DNA from: Asterella californica
Lineage: Eukaryota; Streptophyta; Marchantiopsida; Marchantiales; Aytoniaceae
Length of the DNA stretch: 64,000 nucleotides
Direction of reading: 5' to 3'
Assembly (NCBI GenBank): GCA_036924285.1
Contig: JAYKYS010000012.1
Span: 7,936,001-8,000,000, forward strand
The notes beneath the pieces were generated by a model, which did no database searches, was not told the DNA's origin, and saw only the letters and a program-made list of their open reading frames with translations. Shown here piece by piece: positions 19,101 to 53,545 of this stretch (position 1 is its first letter; each line of letters begins with the position of its first letter). Position numbers and translations under genes: made by a program.

Positions 19101-19740
19101 TATGTACACCTCAATCGATTGAGCCACCCACCTCCGATTTCACTCAGCTGCTTCCGATGTCAGCTTCCGGGAGTTTCACAAGAAACGCTCTTCACTCAAG
19201 TTGCTTCCTCCGCTTCAGCAATTCGACCTCGCCTTCGTTCTAGCTTCTAATCGATCTTATACTCACTCAATTCTCGCTGCCTCCTCACTCGAAGCTCATC
19301 CTTCTGAAATCGATCTTCTCAAGAGCGCGCTTGCTGCGGGAAGTTGGAATGCGCTAATGCGCTTCCCGTGCATCTTTCTCGCAGATTAGGGGTTTCGACC
19401 CTAGGTGGCTTACCCGATCTACCTACAACTTTGGTGTTACCCAGTAGGTACACCCACTTCTTTACATGGAAACTCATGGTTAGACCTTCGCGGTCACTGT
19501 CTTCCGGAAGATGGGTGTCTTTCGCCGTCTTTCCGTCTTCGGAAGACGCGACTGAGAAGACGCTTCTCGGAAGACGGTCATCTTCCGAAGAAGTCAACTT
19601 CTTATTAAAAAGCTCATAAGATCATCTTCCTTCCAAGGAAGCAGTAATCTTAAGTAACAACGCTTCTTCAGTTATACAAACGAGTTATTAATCTTAAAAA
19701 TTTTAAAAATTCGTGAATCCTGTAATTTGTGGGCACCACA
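16112..19740 (-). mobile_element. Inner Z: solo LTR inserted in outer Z
   Basis: On the minus strand this runs TGTGGTGCCCACAAATTAC (from 19740) to CGTCACTACA (at 16112). It is flanked by TGAGA at 16107-16111 and 19741-19745. It is 3629 bp, shorter than outer Z because about 2.24 kb (outer 21545-23785) is missing. The junction sits at a short GGAAGA-type match, as in a microhomology deletion. It carries the same ORF as outer Z, on the minus strand. The opposite orientations create two long inverted-repeat arms. Confidence 0.92.
16342..17743 (-). pseudogene. Inner Z LTR-resident ORF
   Basis: The frame from 17743 starts MSMHPRGLVLPAAELAEA and runs through STEDWWHRVF, QGRNGWKIESYREPKK and LLAKLFLHLFPKGKA. 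A 1-nt insertion near 17270 moves it to a second frame that reads FLEAVWDEGVPINWG, YVHNYVQTELAYLG and LRGDQLAEYG, then an acidic/Ser/Pro linker and a basic patch (PPRKMRRVASSRAQKMK). It ends near 16342 where the 2.24-kb deletion removed the coiled coil. The domain matches the E5 U3 ORF (GRNGY, PKK, FIEQL, LAYIG, LSPEAQKKLG). Function is unknown. Confidence 0.75.
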
Positions 19741-20244
19741 TGAGACGTCAGAAGAATAGAGTGCAATTGTCTTGAGTCTGTTGTGAGGATAGATTGCGCA
19801 TAGGAAGACGAAGACAAGTGAGACCAGTGAAGGGAAGCCTGACTTCGGGAGGTCTTTCGAGAAAGACATTGAATCGGAAACTGTCCCGAGTGTCTTCCCA
19901 GAGACCACTGTCACCGCAGGAGCCCGCAACCATCTTCCAAACCTGTTATGCATTTATGTTTCACGAATCTTGTATCTTCTGATAGGAAGTAGGATGTAAT
20001 GCAAGGTGGGTTGTCTTCTTGGTAATCCATGCGAGGCCTTGCTTAGATAGGATTGTTTAGATATAGCTCGGAAGACGAGAGCTATCTAGGAAGTACTGTT
20101 AGAATCTCGGAAGACGGAGTAGCTGTCTTCTGGAAGACTAGTTTCGTCTTCTGAGAAGTAGAAGCTAGACTGTGGGCACTTGGGAAGGACTGAGCCTTCA
20201 GCTCATAGTAGGTGCTTGTGGCTTAGTGCAACAGATTTTCCAAT

Positions 20245-22513: not shown

Positions 22514-22815
22514 CTAGTAATCGCAGATTGACAATTCCAGATTTAGTAAGACCAAACATGCTATCTTAAGGGTGGCAGTTTCAAGTGTAAAATTAGTAGA
22601 CAGCCATGTGGCAGGGTAGGAAGCGCAAAGATAGGCAGGGGAAACCGTTTGCATGTGGAGAGGCAGTTTTCTCTCCCCGGTGGTGGTTCCTCTGGGTTCT
22701 CGTGGTAAAGACATAAGATCGTAGAGTAGGAATTGAGGCTGCCGCCACCACGCGCTCATGCAAATCTTTCAGTGCAGCCAGAGACACATGAGTTGAGTAG
22801 TCGCACATACTACAC

Positions 22816-22862
22816 CTTCGTATGTCTCTAACATACTCTTCGTATGTTAGAGACATACGAAG
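22816..22862. repeat. Perfect 21-bp hairpin in outer Z
   Basis: CTTCGTATGTCTCTAACATAC (22816-22836) is followed by the loop TCTTC and then its exact reverse complement (22842-22862). It lies about 300 bp after the Z ORF and 1.2 kb before the LTR end. Inner Z lacks it because of its deletion. Confidence 0.9.
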
Positions 22863-24090
22863 AGACTAGGATTATATCGGAGGGGTCTGCATGTTCGTTA
22901 CCAGCAGTGGTTCAAGGATGTAGGCAGAGGTATTGGACAGTCTAGGAGCAGGGAACGGCATTCTCGTGCAGTCCTGCTGGTTAGACTGATGTGTCGAGGA
23001 GTAGGGACAGACAGTAGAGGGAGTGAGCTTCCCAACACCTATGTACCTTCTTCTCGGAGAATGGATTGCTGATTTGAGTGCAGAAGCTTAATTCGTGTCT
23101 TCTAGGTGGTGGATTTCTTGGAATTCGCTCCCAATTGTGCATGGGAAGTGTTCTCCTTGAGTGGCGGTGACTGTTAGCAGGTGTGGCATTGTAGCTTGAC
23201 TCGTTCAGTAGAGCACTTGGGATCTGAGTACGAACGGTCTTATGGATAAGAGATCTCAGAAGACAGAGTAGTCAGAGCAGCGAAGTGAAGAAGAAAGAAG
23301 CCTTCTTCTCACAGCAGAAGACGACATCCTCAAGAAGAAGACGGTGCAACTGTACAAATGTTTGTTGTCTTCCTCCCCAAACTATTACAAGCAGGGATGG
23401 CTTGTTAGTCAGGATCCGGACTAGAAGGCTGTCGGAACCTTAATTTCCTCTTTTCATCTTGTTTTCTCTTGTTTGGATTTTCTCATCTTCCCCATCTCCT
23501 CTCATCTTCCCCATCTTCTTATCTTCTTCTAGTGAGCTTCCGAGACTTCTGTTGAGCTTCCGTGAAGGTGAATGTCATTGTAGTGCTGCAGGAAGACCAT
23601 TTCCGTAGGCAGAAGCCTGGGAAGGCTACAGGGGGCATACACCCTATGATTAATCTAACCCGTTGGAATGTGAGTGTGAGAGTAAGGTGTAACAGCCGTG
23701 CTAGTCGACTTCTGCGGAGCAGGACAGTCTTCTGGAGGTGTGAGAAGACGAGCTGAATCTCTAGAAGACGAGAATCGCTTCGGGAAGACGGTATCGAGAA
23801 GACCAGAAGAAGCAACTTGGAAGTAGGAAGATCGTCTTCCCGAGCTTCTCTGTGAATAGTTGTGTGATATTTTAGTTAGTAGTTGTTTATTTAGATCCAG
23901 AGTACATTTTGGCGTATCTGGAAGACGCGTGATTTTGTGAGAAGACGAGATTTCTAGACAAAACCCGTGTGTTTGTGTGTTTGAACAGATCCTAGAACTT
24001 AGAGCAGCGTTACTTGCGTAAATTCTCTGTGGGAACGATATCTTGTATACTAAATGGGCAAAAGGAGTAATCTTGCGTCACTACATCCTC

Positions 24091-27755: not shown

Positions 27756-28854
27756 TGTCGTGATGTGAATCGTTTCACATAATGAATAATTCACCTCTCA
27801 GTTAGAAGTTAGTCTCTCTGAGCAAAGTTATGACCTCAGAGAAGTCGATTTTGGTGAATGTTATATATATCATGTTGATAGAGTTTAAGCTCATGGGTAG
27901 TACTTACATGTCGCCCATGCATACTTTCTAGCGTGTTTAAGTTATCTTCCAAGGTTATGTTTCATTTTATATGTCTTCTCATGTAGTTTAAGGTTTACGT
28001 TGGCACTTTAGGGGCTTGACGTGGTAGCCTATGTGTAAAATTAAATCACATGGTTTGGGACACAAAAGGACAGGGAAGTGAAGCTATGAACTCCCATTGG
28101 TCCAATTTTGTCCTTGTGTAACTCTAGACTTAGTAGTAGGGGTCTTAAGAGGATTTCGAGCATTTGGTAGAGACATTCTGAAATCTGAGAACACAAGAGG
28201 ATAGGGCTCGTCGTGCCAGTCGCTGTCAGTCAAATTCTTGATCGATTTGGAGCAATAAAGAAGAAGTTATGGCAGATTGAAGTTCGGATTGTACTAGATT
28301 TGCATCACTTTTGTTGATTTTGGAGTTTTTGGTGTCAATCACAACCGAATTGAGAAAATCGCTTCAAACCTTAGTGGTCGCGTTCACCAGCAGGGCTATG
28401 ATTGTCCACAAATTTTCATGTCGGTTGAATAAGTGAGTAATTCAGGGCGACCGCTGAAGCAAAAGGGGTCTAAAAAGCTCTCAATCTAGAGCAGCAACCT
28501 CAGAGATCGAGATCTGGAGAACTGTGTAACAATCAGAAGGTCAAATTTCACAAGGATGTTCAACATGCTATAGACTCCAGATCCTGTAAAAACCATCGAA
28601 AGTTATCGAGCCAATTCTCTGTTCTAGGTCAAAATAGCTGTCTGGATACCAGAAATTGTCCTAAATTTCTTATTATAACGTTTCTGTCCATATCTCGGTG
28701 CTCAAATTTGATCTCAGGCTGAAAACTTCGTATGTGTGTTCAATACGGCCTCATTTACATGTAGGAGAAGTTTTGAGGTCTAAGTCATCATATGTTTCTG
28801 ATTCTTGACTGTTAAAGTTCATTGTCTGATCTTATTATTGCTAGTTTGACTTGG
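27756..28854 (+). repeat. LTR related to E2 LTR, truncated
   Basis: It starts TGTCGTGATGTGAATCG, matching the E3 3' LTR start at 26437. Further in it aligns with the reverse complement of the E2 LTR (ACTCCCATTGGTC, TTATTATTGCTAG and the CTCATGGG region). About 190 bp of the E2-type LTR end is missing: the match stops near 28854, where LTR6 sequence begins. No ORF is present. Confidence 0.72.
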
Positions 28855-29613
28855 TCTTCAGACGATTTGATGAGAAGACCGCAGAATTGGACACTCTCAC
28901 ACTGGAGCTTCGTGCTAGAGATTGACGATTGAGGACGGCTGGATGATCTCATGTACGATAGCTGTGAAGCCTTGGTTTTTCGTTTTGTTAATTAATTGAT
29001 TAGTTGTAAAGTAAATAAGAAGAATAGATGATAGAAGATAAACTATATGAGTAGAATAGTGTTAATTAGAAGTTTAGTGAAGAATCTCTATTCTGGGGGA
29101 ATTTATCGAATCTATGGAGACACTGGAGGGATGACTTCCTCATAGATGAATTCCTCGGGCGAAGAGCTTTCTAACGATATGTTGTGCGATACAATCGGAG
29201 ACCGACTGACGAAGTTACAGCAGACTGAAGAATGTCAGTAGTCAAGAGGAAAACCCTAACTTCGGCACGTGCAGGAAGACCTATCGCGGGATATAACCCA
29301 GGTAACAAGACATTCACTTTACTATTTTACTATTCCCAGAGCGAGCGATAGCAAGAGCGCAGAGAGCCGCATTTTCCGAGCGTCGAAGTACATCAGTTTG
29401 AGGCGAGGAAGCCAGTTTGAGACGAGGAACCCGATTGCGACGAAGAATCCGTTTGTGGCGAAGATCGTTGCAGTGATCCTAGGGATGCGAGGAATGCAGA
29501 CGGCTAAGGCGCCGAGGCTTCGAGCATTTGAGGTTAACCGAGCAGCTCTTCGCCGTTACGATAAGGAGCTCGAGGAGATGTGATTAGCATTTCTCTTACT
29601 TCCTTGGTGGGGG

Positions 29614-31318
29614 ATGGTCTCCTCCAAATTGGTGCACGAGTTGAAGGTTTGCAAGAATCATCCAGCCGACCAGGAATATGGGCGACCTTCTAACTGGACC
29701 GAAGATCACTGGTCCGCTGTCTTGGGAATTGACGATGCAGGTCGGGAAGGTGATCTTCTTTTCGATAGCACATCTGTCGCTACTTCGCCCGAAACAGTGA
29801 AGAACTTCCCCAATCTTTTCAAGGAATTACCTCTAGGGAGGAACGGCTACCGAACGAGCGATTTCTGCGACCCGAAGAAGAGAGAAGTTGCCGATGCGAT
29901 TATGGCGATCTTCAGGCCACGAAGAACGACATACATGTCGAATTGGCAAATCAACTTCATCGAGCAGCTCTTCGCCGGAAGAAGAGCGCATTGGAAGAGG
30001 ATTTTTTTATCGTCACGTGCAGAAGCTCTGGGAAGCCGAAGACTTAGCATACATAGGACCATTTGTCTCGGTGTTCTACATGGCGATGGGACTGCTGTCA
30101 CCCGAAGCACAGAAGAAGTTAGGCTTCACCGCAGCTGCCGAAGATGATGAATATCAAGTGGTGCAGACTCCAGCCCGAGACGCACATCTTGAGAAGTTCT
30201 TCGACGAGATCGAGGCCGAGGGCACCGCAGCCGAAGTAGCAGTGGAGAAAGCGAAGAAGCACGAGGCATCGACTTCAACACCAACCCCAGAGAAGACAAT
30301 CGAAGAATTGACTCCGGCCGAAGACGAAGATGTGATCGAAGTATCTCCCCCGGTCCGCAGAAGTGGCAGGAAGAAACCGCTGGAAGAGACGCCGAGGTCC
30401 GTGCAGAAGTCGAGAAAGAAGATGAAAATGACGAGGACAGTCCGCACCGATGATGAAGCAGTTGACGAGGAAGCGACTGGGGAAGCGGAAGAAGGAGACA
30501 CTCCTCGAATGGAGAAGAGCGTGGATACTACACCGAAGACTACTCTTTCTCTGTCGACAATAGGAGAGATAGAGCAGCTTACTTCTTTGGCGAAGTACAT
30601 CCAGGAAGTAGTCGCGCCACTGCTGTACAGCTTGGAAGGAAACCGCGGGACATACGAGGAGGTTGTCGAGCGGAAACTGAATCTCGCGGAGTTGGTACAG
30701 ACGATGCACTTCGGCCGAGGTAACTGGAAGGAGGAGAAAGAGAATTTACGAGCAGCTCTCGTCATGGCATAGAAGGAAACCCAAGCGAAGGTCGAGGAAT
30801 TGAAGAACGAGACTTCGGAGAAAGAGCTTCTTCTTAGGCAGAAGTCGGATCAGGAGAAAGATCACGAGAAGGTACTTTCTCTGATGAAGAAGCAACTGGA
30901 TGAGATGCGCACGCAGAGGGATCGGGCGCAGGATGTAGTTGCGGAGATAACTAAGGAAGTCGAAGACTCGAGGCGTCGAATGACTTCGGCCGAGGAGCTA
31001 AGCGCTCAACTTCGTAGTAGGATCGAGCCGGTGCTGAAGAACTACTTCGCCGTTGAGATGGACGCCGAGGAACTGGGATTTCTCCGTAAGGTTAGAGAGG
31101 AGTTCTTAGCTGCAGATGCGGAGGGTACTACAGCTAAGAACCGGGTAGCTAGGCTAGGCCAGCGAGTAGTTAGAGAGCTTAGAGAGATTAGAGCAACCGT
31201 AGAGTTCTCAGTTTGCGAGATAGGTAGAGAGCTAGCGGTAGGAAGCGGTGTTGTTCCTGATGTCGTTTCGGACACAGGACCTTCATCTGGCGGACCAGAA
31301 GTGATCCCGACTTCTTAG
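29614..31318 (+). pseudogene. U3-resident ORF, 5' LTR copy of E5
   Basis: The ATG at 29614 opens a frame reading NWTEDHWSAVLG, LPLGRNGYRTSDFCDPKK and WQINFIEQLFAGRRAHW. At a run of seven T (30002-30008) the homologous reading moves +1 to FFYRHVQKLWEAEDLAYIG and LLSPEAQKKLGF. An acidic linker and a Lys/Arg patch (RSGRKKPLEE, KSRKKMKM) follow. A conserved helix (NLAELVQTMHFGRGNW) then runs into an in-frame TAG (30770-30772), and a coiled coil continues in the same frame to 31318. Both breaks occur in the two LTRs alike. An in-frame segment upstream (29269-29583, ending TGA) may be a lost N-terminus. The linker resembles a nuclear or chromatin protein, but no function can be assigned. Confidence 0.72.
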
Positions 31319-31349
31319 GAAGAAGATCCGTCATCTTCGGGAAAACATG

Positions 31350-31356
31350 TATATAA
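31350..31356 (+). promoter_or_regulatory. TATA box of E5 5' LTR
   Basis: CATGTATATAAGCG, 32 bp after the U3 ORF stop. The same box is at 40825-40831 in the 3' LTR and is kept in LTR6 (43119-43125, CTGTATATAAGCG) despite wide divergence around it. It would start genomic RNA near 31380, leaving the U3 ORF of the 5' LTR upstream of the start site. Confidence 0.8.
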
Positions 31357-31970
31357 GCGTTGTGTTGTTCGTATTCAGGACCTCTATGTGTTTTATCATT
31401 TTTGAGTTTTCTATTTCCTGAGTTTGCGGAGCCATTGAGTGTTTGTCTACTTCGGGGATTTACCTACGAAGTATCGTAGTTTGCTGTGGTAGAAATTAGT
31501 CTGGGTGCCGAAGGATTTGTTGTCGACATTTGAAATCAGAGTAGAACGTTTACGGCGAGGACTGAGAATAGACCAGCATCTGCGAGGTTAGTTTGCTACG
31601 AAGACGTTTTTGGGCGAAGTTGACTTCGGAAGAAGTTGTTCTTTGGTGGAACACTTAGGAAGAAGTTCAGTTTGGTACTTCGGCGGAAGAAGAGTCTTCT
31701 TCGCAAGAGTTTTCCGAGAGCAGTAGTGGTGAAAGTAACTTAGTGTGAAGATACTTAGCGTTTATAGTGTTAGAGGCTACCTAGTAACACTTCAGCAGTA
31801 TTTCCTCGTGTGACATTTCTGCCCGTGGCTCTGTTTCTCCGTTGTTTAACTATTCCTTGAGGTCCCTGACCTGTTCAGTACCTGTTATGTTTATTTGTCA
31901 GGATTATCAACTCTGTCTTGTTGGATAGACCTGAGTTTGATCTCTACCGGGACTGATTTCTGCCCGTGAG

Positions 31971-31976
31971 AATAAA
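31971..31976 (+). terminator. Poly(A) signal AATAAA in E5 LTR
   Basis: GTGAGAATAAAAG occurs here, at 41446-41451 in the 3' LTR and at 43739-43744 in LTR6. Conservation in the old copy supports a role in forming the 3' end of element RNA. Confidence 0.65.
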
Positions 31977-32123
31977 AGACAACTATAAAGAATCACCTTT
32001 GTCACGTGTTTACTACTTTTGGATGATCTTTACTTGCATCTCTGTGGGTTCGATCCTTAAATTACTACTTTCGAGCATCTTTTGGTTTTCTTGTTTTTTA
32101 CATATAGAAGACTGAATAAATTT

Positions 32124-32141
32124 TGGCGCCGCTGCCGGGGA
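32124..32141 (+). other. Primer-binding site of E5 (tRNA-Asp type)
   Basis: TGGCGCCGCTGCCGGGGA is complementary, with one mismatch, to the 3' end of plant tRNA-Asp (known sequence recalled, not searched). It lies 21 nt after the LTR end, a somewhat long gap. This primer is typical of Athila and Tat elements. Confidence 0.85.
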
Positions 32142-32192
32142 TGCGAATGCTGAAATTATCCAAGATCAGTGAACAGAAGTCCAGAGACATGT

Positions 32193-35100
32193 ATGTCGAC
32201 GGGCAAGCCTGATCCTCCTGGAAACGTGCAATCTGAGAGAGACAGGAGGCGAGAAAGACGAGCAGAATATCGAGAACAGATTTTGGAAGAAGCTCGTCGG
32301 TTGAAAGAAGAGCATAAGAAAAGAGAACGAGGTTGGAGAACACCTAACTCAAAAGAATGGAAGAGGAAGGAACCAAACCTTGGTGAATCAAGTTCACCCC
32401 GGACACCAAAGTCATTACCTCCAACTCCTCTTGAATCTGCTCAGAGAGAACTTGACTTCGAAGAAGTTACCACTCGGCTAAGTGCTGAGACCGAACATCC
32501 AGAAAGTGAAGTAGGGTGGAAACCTTTTCCCGAAGTCAATACTGTTTTATATCCGCAGTTGTTTACTCCTGACCCAGAGGTAGGAAGTACTTCTGCAGAT
32601 CAAGATCAGTTTACTTCTTCGAATGAAGAAGCTGCAACTAAGGCAGTAGAAGCTGTTACTACCTTAGTGGAACTTTTACAGGCGCAGGAACTTATTCCTC
32701 AAGCACTGGTGCGGGAAATCCTTCCGTTAACTCCAGTGACTCAGAAGGACAGCGCTGCTCCTTACTTACAGCCAACCACAGGACCGTCCATATTCAAGAA
32801 GAGACAAGCCCAAGCAGCTGCTGCTGCGGGTATTGCCCCTGCTGTCCTCGTTCAAGCTGCAGTACCAGCGCCGATTCCAGCTCCTGCCAAGATAGCAACT
32901 CAAGTTCCAAGAGCTCCCTTCGTTCGAAGTATGACAGGCCAACCCATCACGAAACATGGGTACCCAAAGTTCAGAGGAGGATCTTCAGATGACGATGAGG
33001 ATGCAGATGCTTACATTAAACTGTTTGAATCTGTATCTATCACTAATAAGGAAGATGCTGAACCAGATCGTCTGCGAATCTTTCCAAGTCTTCTCAGGAA
33101 GAGAGCACGCAGCTGGTACAATCATGCAAATAGAATACCAGGAGACATCGATACTTGGGACAAGCTGAAGACAAAGTTCTTAGAGCGGTTCCGGGAAATT
33201 GGGTACAATCGTCAAGTTTTGGGAAAGCTGACCAGACTGGTCAGAGGAAAGAAAGAGAGCCTAAAAGATTATGTCCAAAGATTTTATAATCTACTGGACA
33301 GAATTCCGAGGATGGGTACAGCCAACCCATACTCTATGGATCAAGCCACCGAATGGCTAGTTACCGGCTTACCGATTGAAATGGAGATCTGGTGTCGTCG
33401 AGGAAAGATGGACGCCATTGAAGAGGTTGTTGCCTCAGCAGAAGCATTTGAAGCATCCACCCTCGGAAGTAAAGGAGGATGGATAAAAAGGAAGAAGAAA
33501 GGGAAGAAAGAAAAGAAAGAGAAGAAGGAAGAAAAATCGACTCGAAGAAAGAAGCACAAGAAGAGTCGCAGAGAACTCTCTTCCTCCGATGAATCTTCTG
33601 CCGATGAGTCTTCTTCGGCCGAGTCTTCATCGGCGAGTACCTCTTCTTCGAGCGAAGAAGAACGAAGAATGAAACGCAGTTCTTCGTCCAAGGAAAAGAA
33701 AAGCTCGAAGGAGAAGAAGGGCAAGACAAGAGGGGATAGTAATCAACTCATGGAGGAGATGATTAAAGGATTCGCAGACCTGAAAGTGCAGATGGTACGA
33801 TCTCCTGAAGGGAGAAAATCACCTGCTACATCCCGTTCAAGTTTTAGTACGACATGCGGTAAATCAGGACATGCTAATACGGAATGTAAGAACAACAGAA
33901 CATTTCAGGCACAATCACTTGAATGGGCACCAGCATTCGAATCATATTATAGCTCATTCTTTGTGGAAACTCCGGACGAAGTATATGGAGTATTAACTAA
34001 TCCACCCCCAACACAGCCAGCAATTACCCCAATTCAACCCATACCAATTCAAAGGTTTGCACCAAAAGAAAGGGCCCTGAATGTATCTCAGAAACGTTTG
34101 ATGAGCCCGCCAGGAGCAAATAAACCACCATCCCATGGGTCTTGTTTTAATTGTGGCAGTTTGGAACATTGGTCACCAAACTGCCCTCAACCAAAGAAAT
34201 CGATGGGATATGTAGCACTTTGTGGAAGGTGTCATCAGCCAGGACATGCCACAGTAGATTGTACTAACCCACCCGCAGAGAAGAGAGGGGTTCGTTTTGA
34301 TCCCAAAACAGACCGTCCTGCGGAAGCACAACTCCACAAGGTGGACTTGGAAGAATGGAAAGCCGCTGGAGATGAAGGATGGCCACCAGAAGAAACTTGG
34401 GTTTGCAAAGTGGACACCAGAAGCTCTTTCAAATCTAAGAGAAAGGCGGAAGAAGCACCTCTAAAAACTCAATCGAAGAAAGAGTTGAAGAAGCAGAAGA
34501 AGGCAAAGGAGAAAGCCAAGAAGAAGATAGTTGAGGAGGATACCGAAGAAGAGGAAGAAGAACTACTAAAGAGCGTAGACCCTCCGAAACTACCAGTCGA
34601 CATTACAGACGAAGTCCGCGAACTCCTGAAGAAGGAGTTACTACGAGCAAGAACTTCAGCAAAGGAAGCTGATACCACTTCGGCCGAAGTTCCAGAACGA
34701 TCAACTTCGTCTGCACCAACGATTTTCCATACTTCAGCCGCTGAGGACAGAACTGCGACCAAGAACGAGGGGCTTCCGAAGAAGCACAGTCGACTGGAAC
34801 CTGTGAAGAAAGAACCTGTGGCAGTACCACACTATGATGTGGTAGCTGATCTAGAAACTCAGAAGGCTAACATAAGTTTCAAGCAGCTGATTGAAGATAA
34901 CAAAATTTACAGAAAATTGTTACTTCAAGCACTGAAGAAACCCAATAAAGCAAGAAGATCAAAATTACCTTCTCTGTTTCACATCGGGGCAGAAGACCTG
35001 GGATCTCCAGAAGTGGAAGTAGAGGTTGCAGGTTGTGTGATTAGGAAAGTGCCAATTGACTCCGGATCAGGAGTCAACATAATGACAGAAGACACGGCAC

Positions 35101-35558
35101 ACGCGTTGGGTTTCAGTAAGTTTGAAGAAACTCAGCGGGTGTTACGGCTGGCAGATCAAACAAGAAGACGACCACTTGGGCTTCTGCGCAACATTCCCAC
35201 CTTGATAGGCGGAATTTCTTTTAAACTTACTTATGTTGTGCTACGCCCTTTGGTTAAGTCTGGTTATCAAATTTTGATTGGAAGGCCATGGTTGTATGGT
35301 GCCAAGGTACTAACAGATTGGTACCGACACCGTTTACAGTTCAAAGATCCACAGAAACCAACTGATAAGGCTGTGATGGTTTCTTGGAAGAAGATAACTC
35401 ATCAGGGCGAAACGGAGTCGACTGATGAGGGTTACACTTCAGGATCTGATTCATCAACAAGCAGTGCAGGAGAAAGGAAAGGAGACCTTTATTCGATGGT
35501 CAACTATCTACAGTGCTACGAAATTGATGAAGAAGAAGATATGAACGAAGCCGAATAG
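32193..35558 (+). CDS. E5 gag-protease polyprotein
   Basis: 1121 codons from ATG 32193 to TAG 35556. An upstream ATG at 32189 is in another frame. Order: a charged N-terminal helix (residues about 10-50), an Ala/Pro stretch (about 205-240), a Retrotrans_gag-type capsid domain (about 255-420; SWYNHANRIPGDIDTWDKLK), a Lys-rich then Ser-rich segment (about 430-500), one degenerate knuckle (TCGKSGHANTEC) and two intact CCHC knuckles (CFNCGSLEHWSPNC about 650; CGRCHQPGHATVDC about 678). An acidic/Lys linker follows, then a retropepsin domain with PIDSGSGVNIM (about 954) and ILIGRPWLYG (about 1027). The tail is acidic. No lesion is visible. It feeds RT only by passing the terminal UAG, since the frame is unchanged. 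Confidence 0.93.
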   Translation: MSTGKPDPPGNVQSERDRRRERRAEYREQILEEARRLKEEHKKRERGWRTPNSKEWKRKEPNLGESSSPRTPKSLPPTPLESAQRELDFEEVTTRLSAETEHPESEVGWKPFPEVNTVLYPQLFTPDPEVGSTSADQDQFTSSNEEAATKAVEAVTTLVELLQAQELIPQALVREILPLTPVTQKDSAAPYLQPTTGPSIFKKRQAQAAAAAGIAPAVLVQAAVPAPIPAPAKIATQVPRAPFVRSMTGQPITKHGYPKFRGGSSDDDEDADAYIKLFESVSITNKEDAEPDRLRIFPSLLRKRARSWYNHANRIPGDIDTWDKLKTKFLERFREIGYNRQVLGKLTRLVRGKKESLKDYVQRFYNLLDRIPRMGTANPYSMDQATEWLVTGLPIEMEIWCRRGKMDAIEEVVASAEAFEASTLGSKGGWIKRKKKGKKEKKEKKEEKSTRRKKHKKSRRELSSSDESSADESSSAESSSASTSSSSEEERRMKRSSSSKEKKSSKEKKGKTRGDSNQLMEEMIKGFADLKVQMVRSPEGRKSPATSRSSFSTTCGKSGHANTECKNNRTFQAQSLEWAPAFESYYSSFFVETPDEVYGVLTNPPPTQPAITPIQPIPIQRFAPKERALNVSQKRLMSPPGANKPPSHGSCFNCGSLEHWSPNCPQPKKSMGYVALCGRCHQPGHATVDCTNPPAEKRGVRFDPKTDRPAEAQLHKVDLEEWKAAGDEGWPPEETWVCKVDTRSSFKSKRKAEEAPLKTQSKKELKKQKKAKEKAKKKIVEEDTEEEEEELLKSVDPPKLPVDITDEVRELLKKELLRARTSAKEADTTSAEVPERSTSSAPTIFHTSAAEDRTATKNEGLPKKHSRLEPVKKEPVAVPHYDVVADLETQKANISFKQLIEDNKIYRKLLLQALKKPNKARRSKLPSLFHIGAEDLGSPEVEVEVAGCVIRKVPIDSGSGVNIMTEDTAHALGFSKFEETQRVLRLADQTRRRPLGLLRNIPTLIGGISFKLTYVVLRPLVKSGYQILIGRPWLYGAKVLTDWYRHRLQFKDPQKPTDKAVMVSWKKITHQGETESTDEGYTSGSDSSTSSAGERKGDLYSMVNYLQCYEIDEEEDMNEAE

Positions 35559-35564
35559 CAATCA
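35556..35564 (+). promoter_or_regulatory. Candidate stop-codon readthrough site UAG-CAA-UCA
   Basis: GAA TAG CAA TCA CAG. The six bases after the stop fit the CAR-YYA context known to cause readthrough of UAG in tobacco mosaic virus and related plant viruses. The frame after the stop stays open for 660 codons into RT, RNase H and the integrase zinc domain, with no need for a frameshift. This would give a small fraction of gag-pol relative to gag. Confidence 0.7.
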
Positions 35565-38399
35565 CAGCTAGGTCATGGGAGTGCAGAGACCAGTCATACA
35601 GATGGTATAGTTCTTCCAGGAGCATCCCAAGACCTACTAATAAGCGAAGGTAAGAGCTTAAAGATTTCTGTTGTGGTACAAGGAGAAGAGTTGGAAGTGT
35701 ATCGTCAGATGCTGATCCATTATCAAGATGTCTTCGCCTGGACTATGGAGGACATGAAAGGGATACCTGCACAGTGGGGAGAACATCGTATCGACCTCAT
35801 TGAAGGATCAGTACCTGTACGACAGAGGCAGTACCGTCTCAACCCAAAATACTCTTTGATGGTCAAAGACGAGATAGATAAGTACCTAAAGGCAGGTATT
35901 ATTTTCCCTGTGTTAAGCAGCGAATGGGTAGCACCCATAGTAGTGGTACCCAAGAAGCAAACAGGAAAGATAAGAGTCTGTCAAGATTTCAGAAAACTGA
36001 ATGCAGCAACCAAGAAGGATCATCACCCTTTACCTTTTACTGATACCATTTTGGATCATGTATCTGGAAAGGAATGTTACAGCTTTCTGGATGGATTTTC
36101 AGGGTACAATCAAGTGTCCATAAGAGAGCAAGATAAGGACAAGACTACCTTTACTACGGATTGGGGCACTTATGCTTATCACAAGATGCCTTTTGGACTA
36201 TGCAATGCACCAGCTACCTTTCAGAGGATGATGACCTCAATTTTTCAAGATTATTTGCGAAAATTTTTAGAGATCTTTATAGATGATTTTTGTGTTTTTG
36301 GCACACGTGAAGAACATGCAGCATGTTTAGCCAAAACCTTTCAAAAGTGTAGGGAAGCCAGACTTGCATTACATCCTGAGAAGTGTTTCTTCGTGATGAC
36401 TGAAGGGATACTTCTTGGACATAGAGTATCAGGCCGGGGCATAGAAGTAGATGTAGAGAAAGTTCGAGTAATACTCTCCCTGCAACCCCCTACTGACATC
36501 AGCGAGTTGAGAGCCTTCCTAGGACATGTTGGATATTACAGAAGGTTCATCAAAGACTACGCCATACTTGCTGCGCCATTGACAGAATTGCTGAAGAAGA
36601 CGATAGATTACCATTGGCACGAGAAACAGCATGAGGCATTTGAGACGTTGAAGAAGAAGTTGGCAGAAGCACCTGTCATGCGACCACCAGATTGGGAGAG
36701 ACCTTTTCAAGTGTATGTAGACACTTCTGCGTTTGCTATTGGAGTGGTGCTCAGTCAGAAAGATGATGAAAAGAGAGACCATCCAATCTACTATGCGAGT
36801 AGACAACTTTCAGCAGCAGAAAAGAACTACACCACTACTGAACGTGAAGCGTTGGGAATGGTGTACTCAGTAAAGAAGTTTAGACATTACCTCCTTGGGT
36901 ATGAGTTTGTTTTTCATGTGGATCATTATGCGTTGAAGCATCTGGTACAGAAGTCAGACTTGTCAGGGCGGATAGCAAGATGGATGTTGTTACTTCAGGA
37001 GTTTACATTCACAGTTCAGACCAGACAAGGGATTCATCATGAGAATGCTGATTACTTGTCTCGACTGAGAACGGGAGAACGAGTGGATACAGTGGCAGAC
37101 GACTTTCCAGATGAGGAATTGTTCCAGCTGACAGTAGCACCTGCTACGAAATACTATGATCTGTACAGATATTTACAGACTTTGCACTGCCCAGAAGACA
37201 TGGATGCTGAACAGCGAACAGTCTTCATACATCAGGCAGGACCTTACGAACTGAAGAACGGGATACTGTTCAAAAGAGGGCCTGATGAAGAACTTCGTAG
37301 ATGTCTGGAAGTGCATGAGATACCACAAGTGGTGGGAGCACTACACTCAGAGCCTGAAGGCGGACACTATGCACTGAGGAACACTGTGAAGAAGATTCTC
37401 TCAGCTGGATACTGGTGGCCGACGATGTACAAAGATGTTCATGAGATCATCAAGAAGTGTGATAACTGTCAACGAGTGGGTAAGCCTACGCCAACCACTC
37501 AGTGGCCGTTACATCCGATACTTCCATTAGCACCATTCTAGAAGTGGGGAATTGATTTTGTAGGACCCATACAACCTGCAACCCGTCGCACTAGAAGAAG
37601 ATACATACTGATAGCTACTGATTATGCAACGAAGATGGTTGAAGCAGCAGCTACCAAGAAAGACGACGCAGCCACTGTGGTTGAGTTTCTGTATACACAG
37701 ATCATTACTCGATATGGATGCCCACTGGAGTTGGTGAGTGACCGAGGTACACATTTTTTGAACAAAATGATAGAAGAAATGACAGAATACTTTGGTATAA
37801 AACACCGAAAGACAACACCATACAATCCAAAGGCTAATGGATTGACAGAGAAATCTAATGGAGTGTTGTGCAAGATTCTGAACAAGGTGACAGTGAATCA
37901 TGCATATGATTGGGATACAAAGTTACCGGCTGTCTTGTGGGCGTTTCGTAATGCAGAAAAGATAACGACCCGTCAGACACCCTTTTTCCTAACATATGGT
38001 ATGACACCGATCATGCGAGTTGAATTTGATGTACCCACTTACAGAATCCTGTCTGAAGATAGATTGTCAGTAGAGGAGAGTCAATTGTTACGCCTCAAGA
38101 GTTTGATGACACTTGAGGAAGACCGTGAAGAATCGAAACGACTAACGGAGATCATTCAAATGAAGCGGAAAGAAAAGCACGATAAGAAGATCCGCAAAGT
38201 GGATATCAAAGATGGAGATTTAGTACTGCTGTATGACAGTAGGTATACCAAATTTCCAGGGAAGTTACACTTACGTTGGATGGGCCCTTATAAAGTAACG
38301 CGTCGTTATAGTAATGGTTCGGTTCAGTTGGAAGAACTCGATGGAACATTATTAGCCACCCGAGTCAATGGGTGGAGAATCAAGAGATACTACTCTTAA
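35559..38399 (+). pseudogene. E5 pol: RT, RNase H, integrase (one TAG)
   Basis: In frame with gag. RT spans 35820-36400: YRLNPKYS, APIVVVPKK, VCQDFRKLNAATKKDHHPLPF, SFLDGFSGYNQV, MPFGLCNAPATFQRMM and FIDDF (36276-36290). Connection and RNase H (36640-37080) include VYVDTSAFAIGVVL, TTTEREALGMVY and NADYLSRL. The integrase HHCC domain is at about 37360-37480 (CDNCQ). A TAG at 37539-37541 replaces the residue before KWGIDFVGP. The core then gives TDYATKMVE, SDRGTHFLN and NGLTEKSN, a DDE set. The C-terminus has RWMGPYKV, a GPY module, and ends at 38399 just before the polypurine tract. The TAG looks like a single recent nonsense mutation, as the rest is open. Confidence 0.92.
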
Positions 38400-38423
38400 G
38401 TGTTCGCGGGGTCGCTTCACAAT

Positions 38424-38437
38424 TGAGAGGGGGAGTA
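38424..38437 (+). other. Polypurine tract of E5
   Basis: TGAGAGGGGGAGTA directly abuts the 3' LTR start TGTGAAGCC and lies 25 nt after the integrase stop. Confidence 0.85.
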
Positions 38438-41400
38438 TGTGAAGCCTTGGTTTTTCGTTTTGTTAATTAATTGATTAGTTGTAAAGTAAATAAGAAGAAT
38501 AGATGATAGAAGATAAACTATATGAGTAGAATAGTGTTAATTAGAAGTTTAGTGAAGAATCTCTATTCTGGCGGAATTTATCAAATCTATGGAGACACTA
38601 GAGGGATGACTTCCTCATAGATGAATTCCTCGGGCGAAGAGCTTTCTAACGATATGTTGTGCGATACAATCGGAGACCGACTGACGAAGTTACAGCAGAC
38701 TGAAGAATGTCAGTAGTCAAGAGGAAAACCCTAACTTCGGCACGTGCAGGAAGACCTATCGCGGGATATAACCCAGGTAACAAGACATTCACTTTACTAT
38801 TTTACTATTCCCAGAGCGAGCGATAGCAAGAGCGCAGAGAGCCGCATTTTCTGAGCGCCGAAGTACATCAGTTTGAGGCGAGGAAGCCAGTTTGAGACGA
38901 GGAACCCGATTGCGATGAAGAATCCGTTTGTGGCGAAGATCGTTGCAGTGATCCTAGGGATGCGAGGAATGCAGACGGCTAAGGCGCCGAGGCTTCGAGC
39001 ATTTGAGGTTAACCGAGCAGCTCTTCGCCGTTACGATAAGGAGCTCGAGGAGATGTGATTAGCATTTCTCTTACTTCCTTGGTGGGGGATGGTCTCCTCC
39101 AAATTGGTGCACGAGTTGAAGGTTTGCAAGAATCATCCAGCCGACCAGGAATATGGGCGACCTTCTAACTGGACCGAAGATCACTGGTCCGCTGTCTTGG
39201 GAATTGACGATGCAGGTCGGGAAGGTGACCTTCTTTTCGATAGCACATCTGCCGCTGCTTCGCCCGAAACAGTGAAGAACTTCCCCAATCTTTTCAAGGA
39301 ATTACCTCTAGGGAGGAACGGCTACCGAACGAGCGATTTCTGCGACCCGAAGAAGAGAGAAGTTGCCGATGCGATTATGGCGATCTTCAGGCCACGAAGA
39401 ACGACATACATGTCGAATTGGCAAATCAACTTCATCGAGCAGCTCTTCGCCGGAAGAAGAGCGCATTGGAAGAGGATTTTTTTATCGTCACGTGCAGAAG
39501 CTCTGGGAAGCCGAAGACTTAGCATACATAGGACCATTTGTCTCGGTGTTCTACATGGGGATGGGACTGCTGTCACCCGAAGCACAGAAGAAGTTAGGCT
39601 TCACCGCAGCTGCCGAAGATGATGAATATCAGGTGGTGCAGACTCCAGCCCGAGACGCACATCTTGAGAAGTTCTTCGACGAGATCGAGGCCGAGGGCAC
39701 CGCAGCCGAAGTAGCAGTGGAGAAAGCAAAGAAGCACGAGGCATCGACTTCAACACCAACCCCAGAGAAGACAATCGAAGAAGTGACTCCGGCCGAAGAC
39801 GAAGATGTGATCGAAGTATCTCCCCCGGTCCGCAGAAGTGGCAGGAAGAAACCGCTGGAAGAGACGCCGAGGTCCGTGCAGAAGTCGAGAAAGAAGATGA
39901 AAATGACGAGGACAGTCCGCACCGATGATGAAGCAGTTGAAGAAGAAGCGACTGGGGAAGCGGAAGAAGGAGACACTCCTCGAATGGAGAAGAGCGTGGA
40001 TACTACACCGAAGACTACTCTTTCTCTGTCGACAATAGGAGAGATAGAGCAGCTTACTTCTTCGGCGAAGTACATCCAGGAAGTAGTCGCGCCACTGCTG
40101 TACAGCTTGGAAGGAAACCGCGGGACATACGAGGAGGTTGTCGAGCGGAAACTGAATCTCGCGGAGTTGGTACAGACGATGCACTTCGGCCGAGGTAACT
40201 GGAAGGAGGAGAAAGAGAATTTACGAGCAGCTCTCGTCATGGCATAGAAGGAAACCCAAGCGAAGGTCGAGGAATTGAAGAACGAGACTTCGGAGAAAGA
40301 GCTTCTTCTTAGGCAGAAGTCGGATCAGGAGAAAGATCACGAGAAGGTACTTTCTCTGATGAAGAAGCAACTGGATGAGATGCGCACGCAGAGGGATCGG
40401 GCGCAGGATGTAGTTGCGGAGATGACTAAGGAAGTCGAAGACTCGAGGCGTCGAATGACTTCGGCCGAGGAGCTAAGCGCTCAACTTCGTAGTAGGATCG
40501 AGCCGGTGCTGAAGAACTACTTCGCCGTTGAGATGGACGCCGAGGAACTGGGATTTCTCCGTAAGGTTAGAGAGGAGTTCTTAGCTGCAGATGCGGAGGG
40601 TACTACAGCTAAGAACCGGGTAGCTAGGCTAGGCCAGCGAGTAGTTAGAGAGCTTAGAGAGATTAGAGCAACCGTAGAGTTCTCAGTTTGCGAGATAGGT
40701 AGAGAGCTAGCGGTAGGAAGCGGTGTTGTTCCTGGTGTCGTTTCGGACACAGGACCTTCATCTGGCGGACCAGAAGTGATCCCGACTTCTTAGGAAGAAG
40801 ATCCGTCATCTTCGGGAAAACATGTATATAAGCGTTGTGTTGTTCGTATTCAGGACCTCTATGTGTTTTATCATTTTTGAGTTTTCTATTTCCTGAGTTT
40901 GCGGAGCCATTGAGTGTTTGTCTACTTCGGGGATTTACCTACGAAGTATCGTAGTTTGCTGTGGTAGAAATTAGTCTGGGTGCCGAAGGATTTGTTGTCG
41001 ACATTTGAAATCAGAGTAGAACGTTTACGGCGAGGACTGAGAATAGACCAGCATCTGCGAGGTTAGTTTGCTACGAAGACGTTTTTGGGCGAAGTTGACT
41101 TCGGAAGAAGTTGTTCTTTGGTGGAACACTTAGGAAGAAGTTCAGTTTGGTACTTCGGCGGAAGAAGAGTCTTCTTCGCAAGAGTTTTCCGAGAGCAGTA
41201 GTGGTGAAAGTAACTTAGTGTGAAGATACTTAGCGTTTATAGTGTTAGAGGCTACCTAGTAACACTTCAGCAGTATTTCCTCGTGTGACATTTCTGCCCG
41301 TGGCTCTGTTTCTCCGTTGTTTAACTATTCCTTGAGGTCCCTGACCTGTTCAGTACCTGTTATGTTTATTTGTCAGGATTATCAACTCTGTCTTGTTGGA

Positions 41401-41577
41401 TAGACCTGAGTTTGATCTCTACCGGGACTGATTTCTGCCCGTGAGAATAAAAGACAACTATAAAGAATCACCTTTGTCACGTGTTTACTACTTTTGGATG
41501 ATCTTTACTTGCATCTCTGTGGATTCGATCCTTAAATTACTACTTTCGAGCATCTTTTGGTTTTCTTGTGTGTTACA
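38438..41577 (+). repeat. 3' LTR of E5
   Basis: A collinear copy of 28963-32102 at a constant offset of 9475 with no net indel. It supplies the 3' end of the genomic RNA: U3 with the ORF, then R with AATAAA at 41446-41451. The TATA box at 40825-40831 is a possible outward promoter toward 41578. Confidence 0.95.
39089..40793 (+). pseudogene. U3-resident ORF, 3' LTR copy of E5
   Basis: The same gene as at 29614-31318, with the same T-run shift (39477-39483) and the same TAG (40245-40247). Amino-acid differences between the copies are few (for example MAMGLL/MGMGLL, EELTP/EEVTP, VVPDVV/VVPGVV). This is the copy that element RNA would carry, 690 nt downstream of integrase. Translation would need an internal start, a subgenomic RNA or a separate promoter in early U3; none is evident. 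Confidence 0.72.
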
Positions 41578-41582
41578 ATAGC

Positions 41583-42964
41583 ACGACGAAGACGTCTTCG
41601 GAGGAAGTGGCGAAGTACAATGAGCTCTTCTCCACGATGCCGGTAGGGTCGAACGGGTTCAAGATGCACAGTTACATCGAACTGTTTCGAAGAGACATTA
41701 CAGTGGCCTTGAACACAATTGATCTTCAAGTCTTATCGCACGTGATACTTGGCGAATTGGCAGATTCATTTCATCGAGCAGATCCTTGCAGGAAAGAAAG
41801 AGCATTGGGCGAAGATCTTTCACGTACAATATCTTTGACGATGGTGGAGCGATGTACTTCACGGCCTTGGCCGCAGTTTTCTATAGAGGAATGAATTTGC
41901 TGACGCCGTCAGAAGAAAACAAGTATGGACCAAGGACTTCGGCGGAAGATGACTTGATGTTAGAGCCAACACCTCAATGAGATGAGGTGATGACTCTAGT
42001 GACTTCTGCAGGTCCGACTACTCGGACGAAGCGAAGGAGAACGGATGAAGGAACATTAGGAGGAGCTACTTCGCATAGGAAGAAGAAGGCGAAGAAGACG
42101 ACTATTCAGACTTCAGAGAAGAAGCCGAAGATCTTCAAGCTCTAGCGAAGTCTTCTTCAGTAGAGGTTGTAAGAGAAGTGCGCCCAAGGTGAAGTCAAGA
42201 GAATGCAAAGCCCGAAGAGTTTGTTCTGAGAAGGATAAATTCAGACGCAACTGAGCTGCAGGTGGAGAGTCCTCGAGAGATACTTCGTACTACACCGCAG
42301 CAAGATGAAGCGACGACTTCGATCTGTAGAGACCGAAGCATTGGGAAGGAGTTGTAGACATTCGAGCAAACATTGGAGTTTTTGAGTGATACAGCGCTAC
42401 CAATCCTCGCTCAGTTGGACATGCATAGACAAATCTACAAGGAAGAGACAAAGATACCCTTGACATTGTCTGAACTCCTTAGAGCGGTACACTTCGGAAG
42501 GAAAGGATGGCTCGAGGAGAAGCATCAACTCATGACGAAGTTGGATGCCACTCCGGAGGAAGTGAAGAAACTGACATTGGAGCGCGGTGCTCTATTTCAG
42601 GCGAAGTCCAAAAAGCAGGTGAAGGCTTCGCAAGACATTCAGGATTTGCAAGCAAAGTTGAACTTAATGACTTCACGGTTTCACGACATGAAGTCAGAGA
42701 AGGATACTTTACAAGAGTAGTGGCGACCAAGGATGAGGAACTCGCGAAGGCTTCAAAGACGAAGATCACAGTGGAGGCGAAGACCGAAGAACTTTGGGAT
42801 AAAGTGGATGAAGTACTGACTTCGTATTTTGCCACCGAGCTTGATTCATGGGAAGGAGCTTCTACATGACTTCGGGTGGAGATGACAACAACGGCAGATC
42901 CTTCGACTAAGAATAAGATAGTTAGAGTCACGGAGAGGATAGTGCGCGAGATTCGAGAGATCAA
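41583..42964 (+). pseudogene. LTR6 copy of the U3 ORF, decayed
   Basis: Fragments in shifting frames match the E5 ORF: SSEEVAKYNELF with MPVGSNGFKMHSYIELF (against NLFKELPLGRNGYRTSDF), LAPLLYS-type LPILAQLD, LTLSELLRAVHFGRKGWLEEK (against LNLAELVQTMHFGRGNWKEEK), and a coiled coil KDEELAKASKTKITVEAKTEEL ending in VTERIVREIREIKETV (against LGQRVVRELREIRATV). The best-kept parts are the helix around HFGR and the C-terminal REIREI segment. Several stops are present. It shows that the ORF predates the E5 insertion. Confidence 0.7.
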
Positions 42965-43834
42965 AGAGACAGTTAAACTGCCATTGTGGAGTAGAGCTAA
43001 GACTTTACAGTTACGTATTGTAGAGACTTCGGTTCTATCTACTCGGGGATATGATCAGACGTTTAAGATGTAATCCTTCTTCTTAAGAAGTGAAATCTGT
43101 CATCTTCGAACAAAACTGTATATAAGCGTTTTGTTGTTCGTTCTCTATATCTCTATGTGTTTGTTATTTGGATTTTCTATTTTCTGAAGTTTACAGAGCC
43201 ATTGTGTATTTGTCGACTTCAAAGATTTACCTACGAAGCCTCGTAGTTTGTTGTGGTAGGAGTTAGTCTGAGTGACGAAGACTTCGTATGTTTACAACTG
43301 AAATCAGAGTAGGAAGTTTGAGGCGAAGCTTGAGAACAAACTAGTATCTACAAAGTTAGTTTACTATGAAGGAGTTTTAGGACGAAGTTAACCTTGGAGG
43401 AAGTTGTTCTTTTTGGTGAGACACTTAGGAAGAAGTTGAACTTTGTACTTCGGCGATAGAAGAGTCTTCTTCGTCAGAATTTCCAAGGACAGTAGTAGTG
43501 AAGATAACTTAGTGTGAAGATACTTAGCGTTTATGATGTTAGAGGTTATTTAGTAGCACTTCAGCAGTACTTTTTTGTTGAGACATTTCCATCCGTGGCT
43601 CTGTATCTTTGTCGTTTATCTTTTCTTGAGGTCCCTGGCCTGTTTAGTACATGTTATGTTATTTGTCAAGATTATCCACTCTGTCTTGTTGAATAGACCT
43701 GAGTTTGATCTCTACCGAGACTGATTTCTGCATGTGAGAATAAAAGCAACCATAAAGAATCACATTTGTCACATGTGTACTACTTTTGAATGTTTACCGG
43801 ATACTCGTAAAGAAGCTCGATCTTGTTGTTGATT

Positions 43835-46472: not shown

Positions 46473-46872
46473 CTAACGTGAATGGGACGGAAAAAAGAGC
46501 CGAAAGAGGGAAGTAGACTTTAACGTAACCGAGACGACAGTCTGGCTAGGGGCTGAGCAGACTCCATCCTGAAGAGAGAATGGACTCACCTGAGGCTTGC
46601 TGGTTAACTCCTTGATCAGCGAGTGATCGATAAAAGAAACTGTTTTTGGGAATGCTAATTAATCAGTTTTCATTGTAGCTCGAAGTGGTTATTTTTGCAT
46701 TATTCTATCCCTGACCCATCGCAATCGATCCCTTTTTTTCTTTGCGGTGGAACAAAGGGATCATTACAGTGTACGTGAGTCAATATCTAACCATATAGGT
46801 TAAGAAATACCGTTACATCATTCATATGCATGAACCATTGTCGAATTTTGAAACCGTTCCTGCTCCGGCTGG

Positions 46873-46879
46873 TATATAA
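46873..46879 (+). promoter_or_regulatory. TATA box of peptide gene 1
   Basis: GGTATATAAGGAAGTCC, 123 bp before the ATG. Gene 2 has GTATATAAGAAGTCC at the matching place. Also shared upstream are ACAGTGTACGTGAGTCAATAT, ACCATATAGGTTAAG and CATATGCATGAACC; the last holds a TGCATG RY-type core. Confidence 0.8.
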
Positions 46880-47001
46880 GGAAGTCCTTGCAATCCAAAT
46901 CTGCATCGCATGCTTGCATCTCTCAACACTCAAGTCCCAAGAGTCTGAACTTTTTCATCTTCTACTTGCTGCTTCTCCTGACGGAGAACGAAGAGACCAC
47001 G

Positions 47002-47382
47002 ATGGCGATGAAGTGGACTGCTCCAAATACACTGCTCCTAATCTGCTGCTGCGTTGTGCTTCTTATGATGGCACATACTACTTCTGCGAGAGATTTCAAC
47101 GGAACTCTTGCCAGATATATCAATGGAACTGTCGTTGACAGTACTAGTGACTACGATGGTGGGACACTTTCTCAGTTTGAATCAGACGATACGAATTATG
47201 ACTATCGTTTCTTTTTAATGTCTGAATGCTGAATGCTTTTCTCGTGGATGATTGTAGAGCAAGCGTTTCTGTATTTTGTTCTGACAAAGTTTGCGATGTG
47301 CACAGGGAACTGCAGCTTCTCGTATTGCTGCTGCAAACCTCATGGTCCCTACTGTTTGATCGGCCTGTGCTGTTGTACGTGA
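47002..47382 (+). CDS. Secreted cysteine-rich peptide, gene 1 (two exons)
   Basis: Exon 1 is 47002-47158; a 147-nt intron (GTGGGA...CACAG) follows; exon 2 is 47306-47382. The intron is phase 1, and the joined codon is Gly. The product is 77 residues. A signal peptide (core LLLICCCVVLLMMA) probably cleaves after TTSA29. The mature chain has two N-x-T sequons (N33, N41). The C-terminus has eight cysteines spaced C-x4-CCC-x6-C-x4-CCC and ends in Thr. Without splicing the cysteine module is lost. The ATG choice rests on agreement with gene 2; an open frame upstream has no ATG after the expected start of transcription. I cannot place it in a named family. Small secreted signalling or antimicrobial peptides are the obvious comparison. 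Confidence 0.82.
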
Positions 47383-48205
47383 GATCCAGAATCGCGTTTC
47401 TTGGGATCGTTCCTGCTATGTACGTAAGTAGACGTGGATCTCCAGTTGTTTCCGAAGATATAGACCAAATAAAAAACCTAAAGTGCGATGCTCAAAGCAC
47501 TATTTTGGTTGTAGGTACGTACATGCTAGCTTAGCACCTTTTGGAAATTGGGGGTACGCTAGTAGTCTAATGTATACGTTCGAGATCTTGATCTTCGAGA
47601 AAGCTACAAAAAGTCACATCAGACTTTCTTCTTTTATCATCATTTCGACTATTGACCAGATGTACATGTGCATGCTCGCTCACGGTTCTGACTTAATGCC
47701 AATAGATTGTGAAGAAAACTGATTACAGTAAAGCGGTTCACCTTTCCTTCGAAGTCGATTCGGTGGTCAGATTAGAGTGCAAGCAACGAGTCCACAACAA
47801 TCATGATCCCAACTGGACTATAGCGTAACTAATCAATTGCAAAAGCTCACGACAACCAGCTTCGCCAACTTTACATGTTAAACTATATCGACTTCGTAAA
47901 GCACTAGCGCTTGAGTGGCCATGGGTTCTTTCCACGAGTATTTATCGTGTCTTGAAAAGCCGTAATGTAGATTATTTTTCAGTTTTGAGATTCCACTCCG
48001 CAATTTCCCTATCCAAAGAGATCATGAGGTTATGGAACATAATTCCACGATCTTAGTTACTCCGATAATGTCATGGAGCAAATGAAGGTTTTCCAATGCG
48101 AATCGAATCTGCAAGTCTCTGTCCATTAAAAAAGGAACAAAATTCCCGAAACGAAGTATTTAAAGCGTCTGTCCCGCCTCCGGCTACAACCCTCCAATTG
48201 AAAGG

Positions 48206-52915: not shown

Positions 52916-53545
52916 CTATAAGACATGTTTGATGTTGGGAGTTGGGACGATCTCATAAGGGTCAGAGGCAGTCATTACCTCCACTTTGAATACCTGAAAA
53001 ACCATCTCCTCTTCTTGTCTTCCAGAAGACGTCTTGGCTTCTAGAGCTGCTTCGTATGTCTTCTTCGCTTCTAGTGCTGTTACCACCAAGTGAACAGTTA
53101 GGTCAAACTCCTCCTTGTCTGGATCTTCAACATAGGCGGGTCCTAGGGCATCGGAAGACGTGGTTGTAGGGTTGAGAACGGAAAGAAAACCGTAGAGTGT
53201 CTTCCGATCTTTGACTGTCGATCCAAGTAGCGGAACATGTTGTCCTTGCATTCCAGCAACATGTCCTTTGAGGCATCGTCTCAAGTTCGGGTCAAAGTCA
53301 GAAGCTTCCTCCCTGCGGTGAAGTTAAACTTCTTCCTGAGCGCTTCTCTCGTTTGCGCCATGATCTCTTTACTTCGGACTTCTACTTCCATCCGCTGCTT
53401 CTTCTCTTTTGCAGCCCTGGCTTCTGCAGCTTCTTGCTGTGCATTCCAAGTCTTCTTCTCCTCCACCGGATCAATTAGTTTATCTCTGATTTCTTCAAGT
53501 TTCTTCTTTATGTTGGGAAGCGGAGCAGTGACTTGGTCAAGCAAA
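52916..53545 (-). pseudogene. Z ORF C-terminal fragment
   Basis: Two frames read WNAQQEAAEARAAKEKK, REALRKKFNFTAGRKLL, then DKEEFDLTVHLVVTALEAKK, VFQVFKVE and ASDPYE. These match outer Z (KQQEAAEARVAVEK, KALRNKFNFTAGRKLL, KEEFDLAVHLVVTALE, VFRVEE, LDPYE). FNFTAGRKLL and FDLxVHLVVTALE are the best-kept parts after the coil. The match shows which frame is correct near 22170 in outer Z. Confidence 0.8.

Follow-up and report, generated by a model that had tools for sequence, protein, structure and literature searches.

Can a long terminal repeat (LTR) of a plant retrotransposon hold a protein-coding gene that selection keeps? This question is raised by a 64,000-nucleotide stretch of DNA from Asterella californica (assembly GCA_036924285.1, contig JAYKYS010000012.1, positions 7,936,001 to 8,000,000 of the forward strand; hereafter the window), in which a complete Ty3/gypsy element, E5, carries a copy of the same gene in each of its LTRs, and two further LTR families, LTR6 and Z, carry homologues. 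We regard it as close to certain that this gene exists and is under selection. Our overall reading, to which we give a probability of roughly 0.6, is that a group of Ty3/gypsy elements would hold an accessory gene in the unique 3' (U3) region of the LTR, with a nuclear, self-associating product acting on the element's own LTR. Coordinates are collected in Table 1.

The E5 copy in the window is a pseudogene in both LTRs; in 5' LTR positions, the frame is interrupted by a stop at 29581, another at 30770 and a frame change near 30000. A preliminary description of this DNA had placed a coding gene at 29614..40793; the open, selected frame is found in other copies of the family but not in this one, and the start at 29614 probably has to be abandoned, as constraint extends upstream to 29485. 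That earlier start had been called because of the stop at 29581, which is peculiar to the window's E5 among the 30 elements that we compared. Read in the gene frame, these elements have a ratio of nonsynonymous to synonymous differences per site (pN/pS) of 0.166 at 29485-29613 and 0.22 in the next two stretches, whereas at 29260-29484 it is 1.13 and there is no frame effect like that of the gene; a stop at 29257 closes the frame upstream in 29 of the 30. Of the candidate start codons, ATG 29485 and ATG 29494 occur in 28 elements apiece and ATG 29614 in all 30. Because pN/pS is low from 29485 onward and not before, and because both upstream ATGs are so widely present, the true start is probably 29485 or 29494, which gives a gene of about 610 codons counted from 29485 (567 from 29614).

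The sample of 30 elements was what remained of 40 rows after 10 had been dropped before calculation, eight as second LTRs or near-duplicates and two (L022 and L040) as badly gapped. Mean pairwise synonymous divergence (dS) in the gene is 0.298 and nonsynonymous divergence (dN) 0.062, a ratio of 0.209, compared with 1.15 and 1.32 in the two shifted frames, and the ratio is low in the globular (0.203), linker (0.278) and coiled-coil (0.168) parts alike. Among variants present in at least two elements, 208 are synonymous and 172 nonsynonymous, where 119.7 +/- 8.2 synonymous ones would be expected; omega is about 0.38, which none of 400 simulations reached, whereas the singletons comprise 81 synonymous and 208 nonsynonymous changes with 87.3 synonymous expected (omega about 1.1). 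Since the shared variants are constrained and the singletons neutral, the gene has been selected in active elements and has drifted in dead copies; purifying selection has maintained the protein during the active life of these elements.

The gene also recurs across the genome. A DNA search of the 517-Mb genome gave 1,102 first-look candidates, of which 40 were scored, at 85-100% identity; eight of these are free of frameshifts and stop codons throughout the 567 codons counted from 29614, a number that includes the alignment reference and the two LTRs of one element. With the N-terminal domain of the E5 protein as query, 150 of 6,010 candidates were scored, at 87-100% identity. Open frames of at least 567 residues surround 105 of these matches and frames of at least 640 residues surround 86, and six have a stop within the matched part. 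The frame is thus conserved in other LTRs, one of the two points on which the preliminary description had staked its claim, the other being a dN/dS well away from 1, which also holds. Among the 150 matches there are 32 same-strand neighbours lying 9,459-9,643 bp apart, with a chance expectation of about 0.01, and since this agrees with the 9,475 bp between the two E5 genes, the gene recurs genome-wide at LTR spacing. Four E5-type LTR genes stand on one strand at 9,550-bp spacing in contig C102 (21850789-21879828) and three at 9,551-bp spacing in contig C92 (913240-932731); these series are likely tandem LTR-internal-LTR arrays, as from unequal LTR recombination.

E5 has the LTRs, primer binding site, polypurine tract, target duplication and domain order of a Ty3/gypsy element, with integrase after RNase H, although its protease-like match is weak (E 0.005), and domain searches of the element gave no match to a chromodomain. 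Its pol retrieves 4,682 database relatives, the best named ones among the best 120 being from the liverwort Riccia sorocarpa (65-73%). The gag-pol frame is interrupted by two stop codons that end at 35558 and 37541, the first of which may be either a lesion or a read-through site. The TATA box and the AATAAA signal both lie 3' of the gene, so that, as LTRs are normally organised, the gene is apparently contained entirely in U3, between the polypurine tract and these signals. We infer that R spans about 31380-31995; the second TATAWA is hardly its start, because it comes after the AATAAA. In standard retrotransposon biology, U3 sequence occurs once in the RNA and twice in the DNA copy.

A complete Z LTR measures 5,868 bp and carries a homologue of the E5 gene. 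The protein search with the Z product gave 9,489 candidates, of which 150 were scored, at 88-100% identity; by our count of the matches listed, 17 of the 150 have no stop in the matched part and belong to frames 740 or more residues long. From 30 fetched loci, 18 with more than three frameshift indels in the alignment were dropped, and the remaining 12 copies give a dN/dS of 0.246 (globular domain 0.121, linker 0.35, rest 0.316), a set whose selection by protein similarity may have biased dN downward; the shifted frames give 0.98 and 1.05. Shared variants have an omega of 0.34 and singletons one of 0.74 (P 0.007). One of the 30 loci is fully open against the 716-codon reference, namely the reference itself, and many are truncated or badly gapped. 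Selection on the product, as the preliminary description had proposed, is therefore seen in both families.

Between two same-strand Z LTRs, locus L072 has the primer site TGGCGCCGCTGCCGGGGA, as in E5, a polypurine tract directly 5' of the LTR, and gag-pol pieces with 33-53% identity to those of E5 from gag to protease and 59-73% in pol. Because the primer site is identical and gag-pol is related, Z and E5 would seem to be separate branches of a single clade with the U3 gene in common; their globular domains are about 25% identical. The Z gene lies in the LTR, and its location in U3 would follow by analogy with E5. In the window, two Z solo LTRs at 14579-24090 are nested head to head, each with its own 5-bp target duplication, the inner one 3.6 kb long on the minus strand and the outer one 5.9 kb long on the plus strand. 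The outer LTR is placed inside a pol gene, and the nested pair at first sight resembles a 1.5-kb inverted-repeat transposon.

The third family, LTR6, is old: the nearest other near-full-length copy in the genome is 84% identical (40 scored of 973 candidates). Its degraded gene has 42% protein identity to that of E5 over 177 aligned codons, with identities by codon position of 0.54, 0.63 and 0.38. The LTRs of E5, LTR6 and Z, as the preliminary description had held, encode one kind of protein. At the DNA level the LTR6 gene is about 50% identical to that of E5 (35-65% by window) and the 3' noncoding part 82% overall (31311-32025 vs 43079-43792; windows of 78-89%, the last 65%). The step in identity sits directly after the stop codon, and it may be that the gene does not share the history of the promoter/R module. 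Within the E5 family, too, the noncoding LTR differs by a p of 0.044 in its 3' part and 0.090 in its 5' part, compared with the gene dS of 0.298. Because these noncoding parts are far more alike than the synonymous sites, most of the LTR appears to be constrained or homogenised by recombination; unusually fast synonymous change is a further possible cause of the gap. The gene thus evolves faster than the promoter/R part, and other parts of the LTR are better conserved than it is, but this leaves the frame-specific dN/dS result unweakened.

Seven open copies of the E5 and Z proteins have in common the motifs WTExxW, GRNG and PKK and an aromatic-rich LAYxG..PF block, and the layout previously claimed, in which a globular domain is followed by an acidic linker bearing basic clusters and then by a coiled-coil-like end, is present as a whole in both families. 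In one copy from each family no membrane-spanning stretch was seen, the best 19-residue hydropathy being 1.5 for the E5-family protein and 0.9 for that of Z. We scanned Pfam at E up to 10 with two E5-family and three Z queries, all from open copies, and no family passed its cut-off. The families that had been suggested, plant mobile domain (PF10536) and Transposase_32, gave no match at this limit, and Transposase_28 (PF04195), Athila ORF-1 (PF03078), the families of mouse mammary tumor virus (MMTV) sag and lentiviral Nef, and any Gag family were likewise absent among the matches. No PDB chain matched the protein, and protein-database searches with it returned no relative, although the same database returned relatives of pol.

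What might such a protein do for its element? Because the polypurine tract lies close behind pol, the element RNA would carry the gene a single time, close to the 3' end, while the DNA copy would carry it twice, and the gene would persist in solo LTRs; the preliminary description had said as much of the DNA, and the gene is indeed seen in both E5 LTRs and in Z solo LTRs, while the RNA side would follow from the anatomy. With its globular domain, acidic linker bearing basic clusters and coiled coil, and with no membrane segment, the protein would be nuclear and self-associating, and it may act in trans on the LTR of the element that encodes it, either activating transcription or countering silencing. 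We put forward this specific function, that of a nuclear accessory factor, only tentatively, from the architecture of the protein and an analogy with the anti-silencing VANC proteins of VANDAL elements. VANDALs are DNA transposons, unlike E5. The proposed likeness, made on function and without sequence comparison, is that VANC is an element-encoded protein acting on the element's own DNA (accessible parts of PMC10398659 and PMC5735166).

The strongest rival, nearly as plausible as an LTR regulator and in itself somewhat unlikely, is that the protein works with the particle or with Gag, as an accessory factor that serves assembly, RNA packaging or nuclear import of the cDNA complex through its coiled coil. 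The constraint on the coiled-coil part (0.17 in E5) and the fact that E5 and Z have both gag-pol and the gene in common fit this role and, with that near equality, weigh against our reading of the protein as an LTR regulator; the lack of a Gag family among the Pfam matches and the basic clusters in E5, which suggest the nucleus, point away from a Gag partner but are not decisive. An envelope-like 3' gene drawn into the LTR, of the kind on which there has been speculation for certain Athila and SIRE elements, would suit the location downstream of pol but is improbable for proteins of such low hydropathy. Captures of host genes are known in plant elements, but a host gene captured by chance and carried without use to the element is very improbable given constraint on shared variants in two families and homologues in three. 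Finally, we can scarcely credit that base composition, or constraint acting on the LTR as DNA or RNA, has produced the open frame as a side effect, or that the antisense strand codes, for although antisense frame 1 also has a low ratio (0.302), this is because the variable third position is common to both frames, the constraint is specific to the gene frame, third positions vary at 0.167 vs 0.075 and 0.063 for the others, antisense frames reach at most 148-272 codons in the 30 elements, and the stretch just upstream of the gene is without such a frame effect.

The accessory genes MMTV sag and lentiviral nef lie in U3, once in the RNA and twice in the provirus. As parallels, which they were held to be from the outset, they are apt in position because the E5 gene also sits in U3, between the polypurine tract and promoter/R; no homology to either was found among the Pfam matches, and they differ in hosts, in element group and in that no membrane segment was seen in the E5 product. 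Our literature searches on open reading frames (ORFs) or genes in LTRs brought up cases from retroviruses and, in plants, extra ORFs located outside the LTR, and among the matches listed none inside a plant LTR, in agreement with the earlier remark that no plant case was known; most subscription papers were beyond reach, and this is no proof of absence. We file the gene among the extra ORFs of plant Ty3/gypsy elements, but with a U3 location such as certain retroviruses have. A survey, PMC6317226, covers the extra ORFs (eORFs) of plant Ty3/gypsy Ogre/Tat/Athila elements, and in its accessible part they resemble the E5 gene as frames of more than 250 codons with heterogeneous, lineage-specific proteins on a Ty3/gypsy backbone that is non-chromodomain there and apparently so in E5. 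That part mentions none inside an LTR, unlike the E5 gene, and the domains it lists (plant mobile domain, Transposase_28, Athila ORF-1) have no match in the E5 and Z proteins. With at least 250 codons beside the polyprotein the E5 gene is a plant Ty3/gypsy eORF, unusual in being inside the LTR. The rice elements Retrosat2, RIRE3 and RIRE8 likewise combine long LTRs, of some 3 kb upward, with a single additional ORF that evolves faster, but as far as the accessible text of PMC3485330 goes this ORF0 stands upstream of the gag-pol ORF, is not described within the LTR and has been reported in grasses only. The plant mobile domain, reported in other gypsy elements and in host silencing genes (PMC5418596 and PMC9289625, in part), offers an analogy for the E5 and Z protein with no Pfam match, and bursts of Ty3/gypsy elements are described for another liverwort, Lunularia cruciata (PMC9985172, in part).

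Elsewhere in the window, a second LTR element lies on the minus strand at 4795-13211, with a different pol and with LTRs that agree at 98.5% of positions over 1,289 bp; neither the E5 nor the Z protein had a tblastn match in these LTRs. An LTR related to this element is present at 27868-28841. A direct repeat (46738-47580 and 56434-57302, 84% identical) contains a short frame with, by eye, a signal-peptide-like start and only a weak, below-threshold Pfam match.

Table 1. Positions of E5, its U3 gene and related features in the window.
Feature	Position	Strand	Remarks
E5 target duplication	28958-28962 and 41578-41582		ATAGC, 5 bp
E5 complete element	28963-41577	+	Ty3/gypsy type, two 3,140-bp LTRs
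E5 5' LTR	28963..32102	+	3,140 bp, TG..CA ends
U3 gene, E5 5' LTR	29485..31318	+	probable start ATG 29485 or 29494
Globular domain, E5 protein	29680..30150	+	WTEDxW, GRNGY, PKK, FIEQL, LAYIG, PF..Y
Acidic linker, E5 protein	30151..30570	+	basic clusters RRSGRKK, KKMK
Coiled-coil-like C-terminal part, E5 protein	30571..31315	+	counterparts in LTR6 and Z
TATA box	31350..31355	+	TATAWA in 29/30 elements, downstream of gene
AATAAA	31971..31976	+	29/30 elements, downstream of gene
Second TATAWA	31984	+	30/30 elements, after AATAAA
E5 primer binding site	32124..32141	+	TGGCGCCGCTGCCGGGGA, close behind 5' LTR
E5 gag-pol	32154..38399	+	Retrotrans_gag, zinc knuckles, protease-like, reverse transcriptase, RNase H, integrase zinc finger, rve
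E5 polypurine tract	38425-38437	+	close behind pol; LTR including gene comes next
E5 3' LTR	38438..41577	+	99.3% identity to 5' LTR
U3 gene, E5 3' LTR	38960..40793	+	lesions as in 5' LTR copy
LTR6	41583..43792	+	older third family, interrupted by E5
LTR6 gene homologue	to about 42980; 5' gene piece 28873-28957	+	degraded
Diverged Z-type gene fragment	53024..53490	-	57-60% identity to Z

Selection can retain a gene inside the LTRs of plant retrotransposons. Each insertion doubles such a gene and LTR-LTR recombination leaves a solo gene, so that, if the protein acts on LTRs, very many solo LTRs could feed back on the family. It is possible, if still doubtful, that a plant clade would here have its own trans-acting LTR regulator within the LTR, independent of sag and nef, with each solo LTR a self-contained regulatory gene together with its target; if true, no selected accessory gene in U3 would have been described in plants before this one. 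Long plant LTRs should not be assumed to be noncoding, and annotation that seeks extra ORFs only between the LTRs would overlook such genes.
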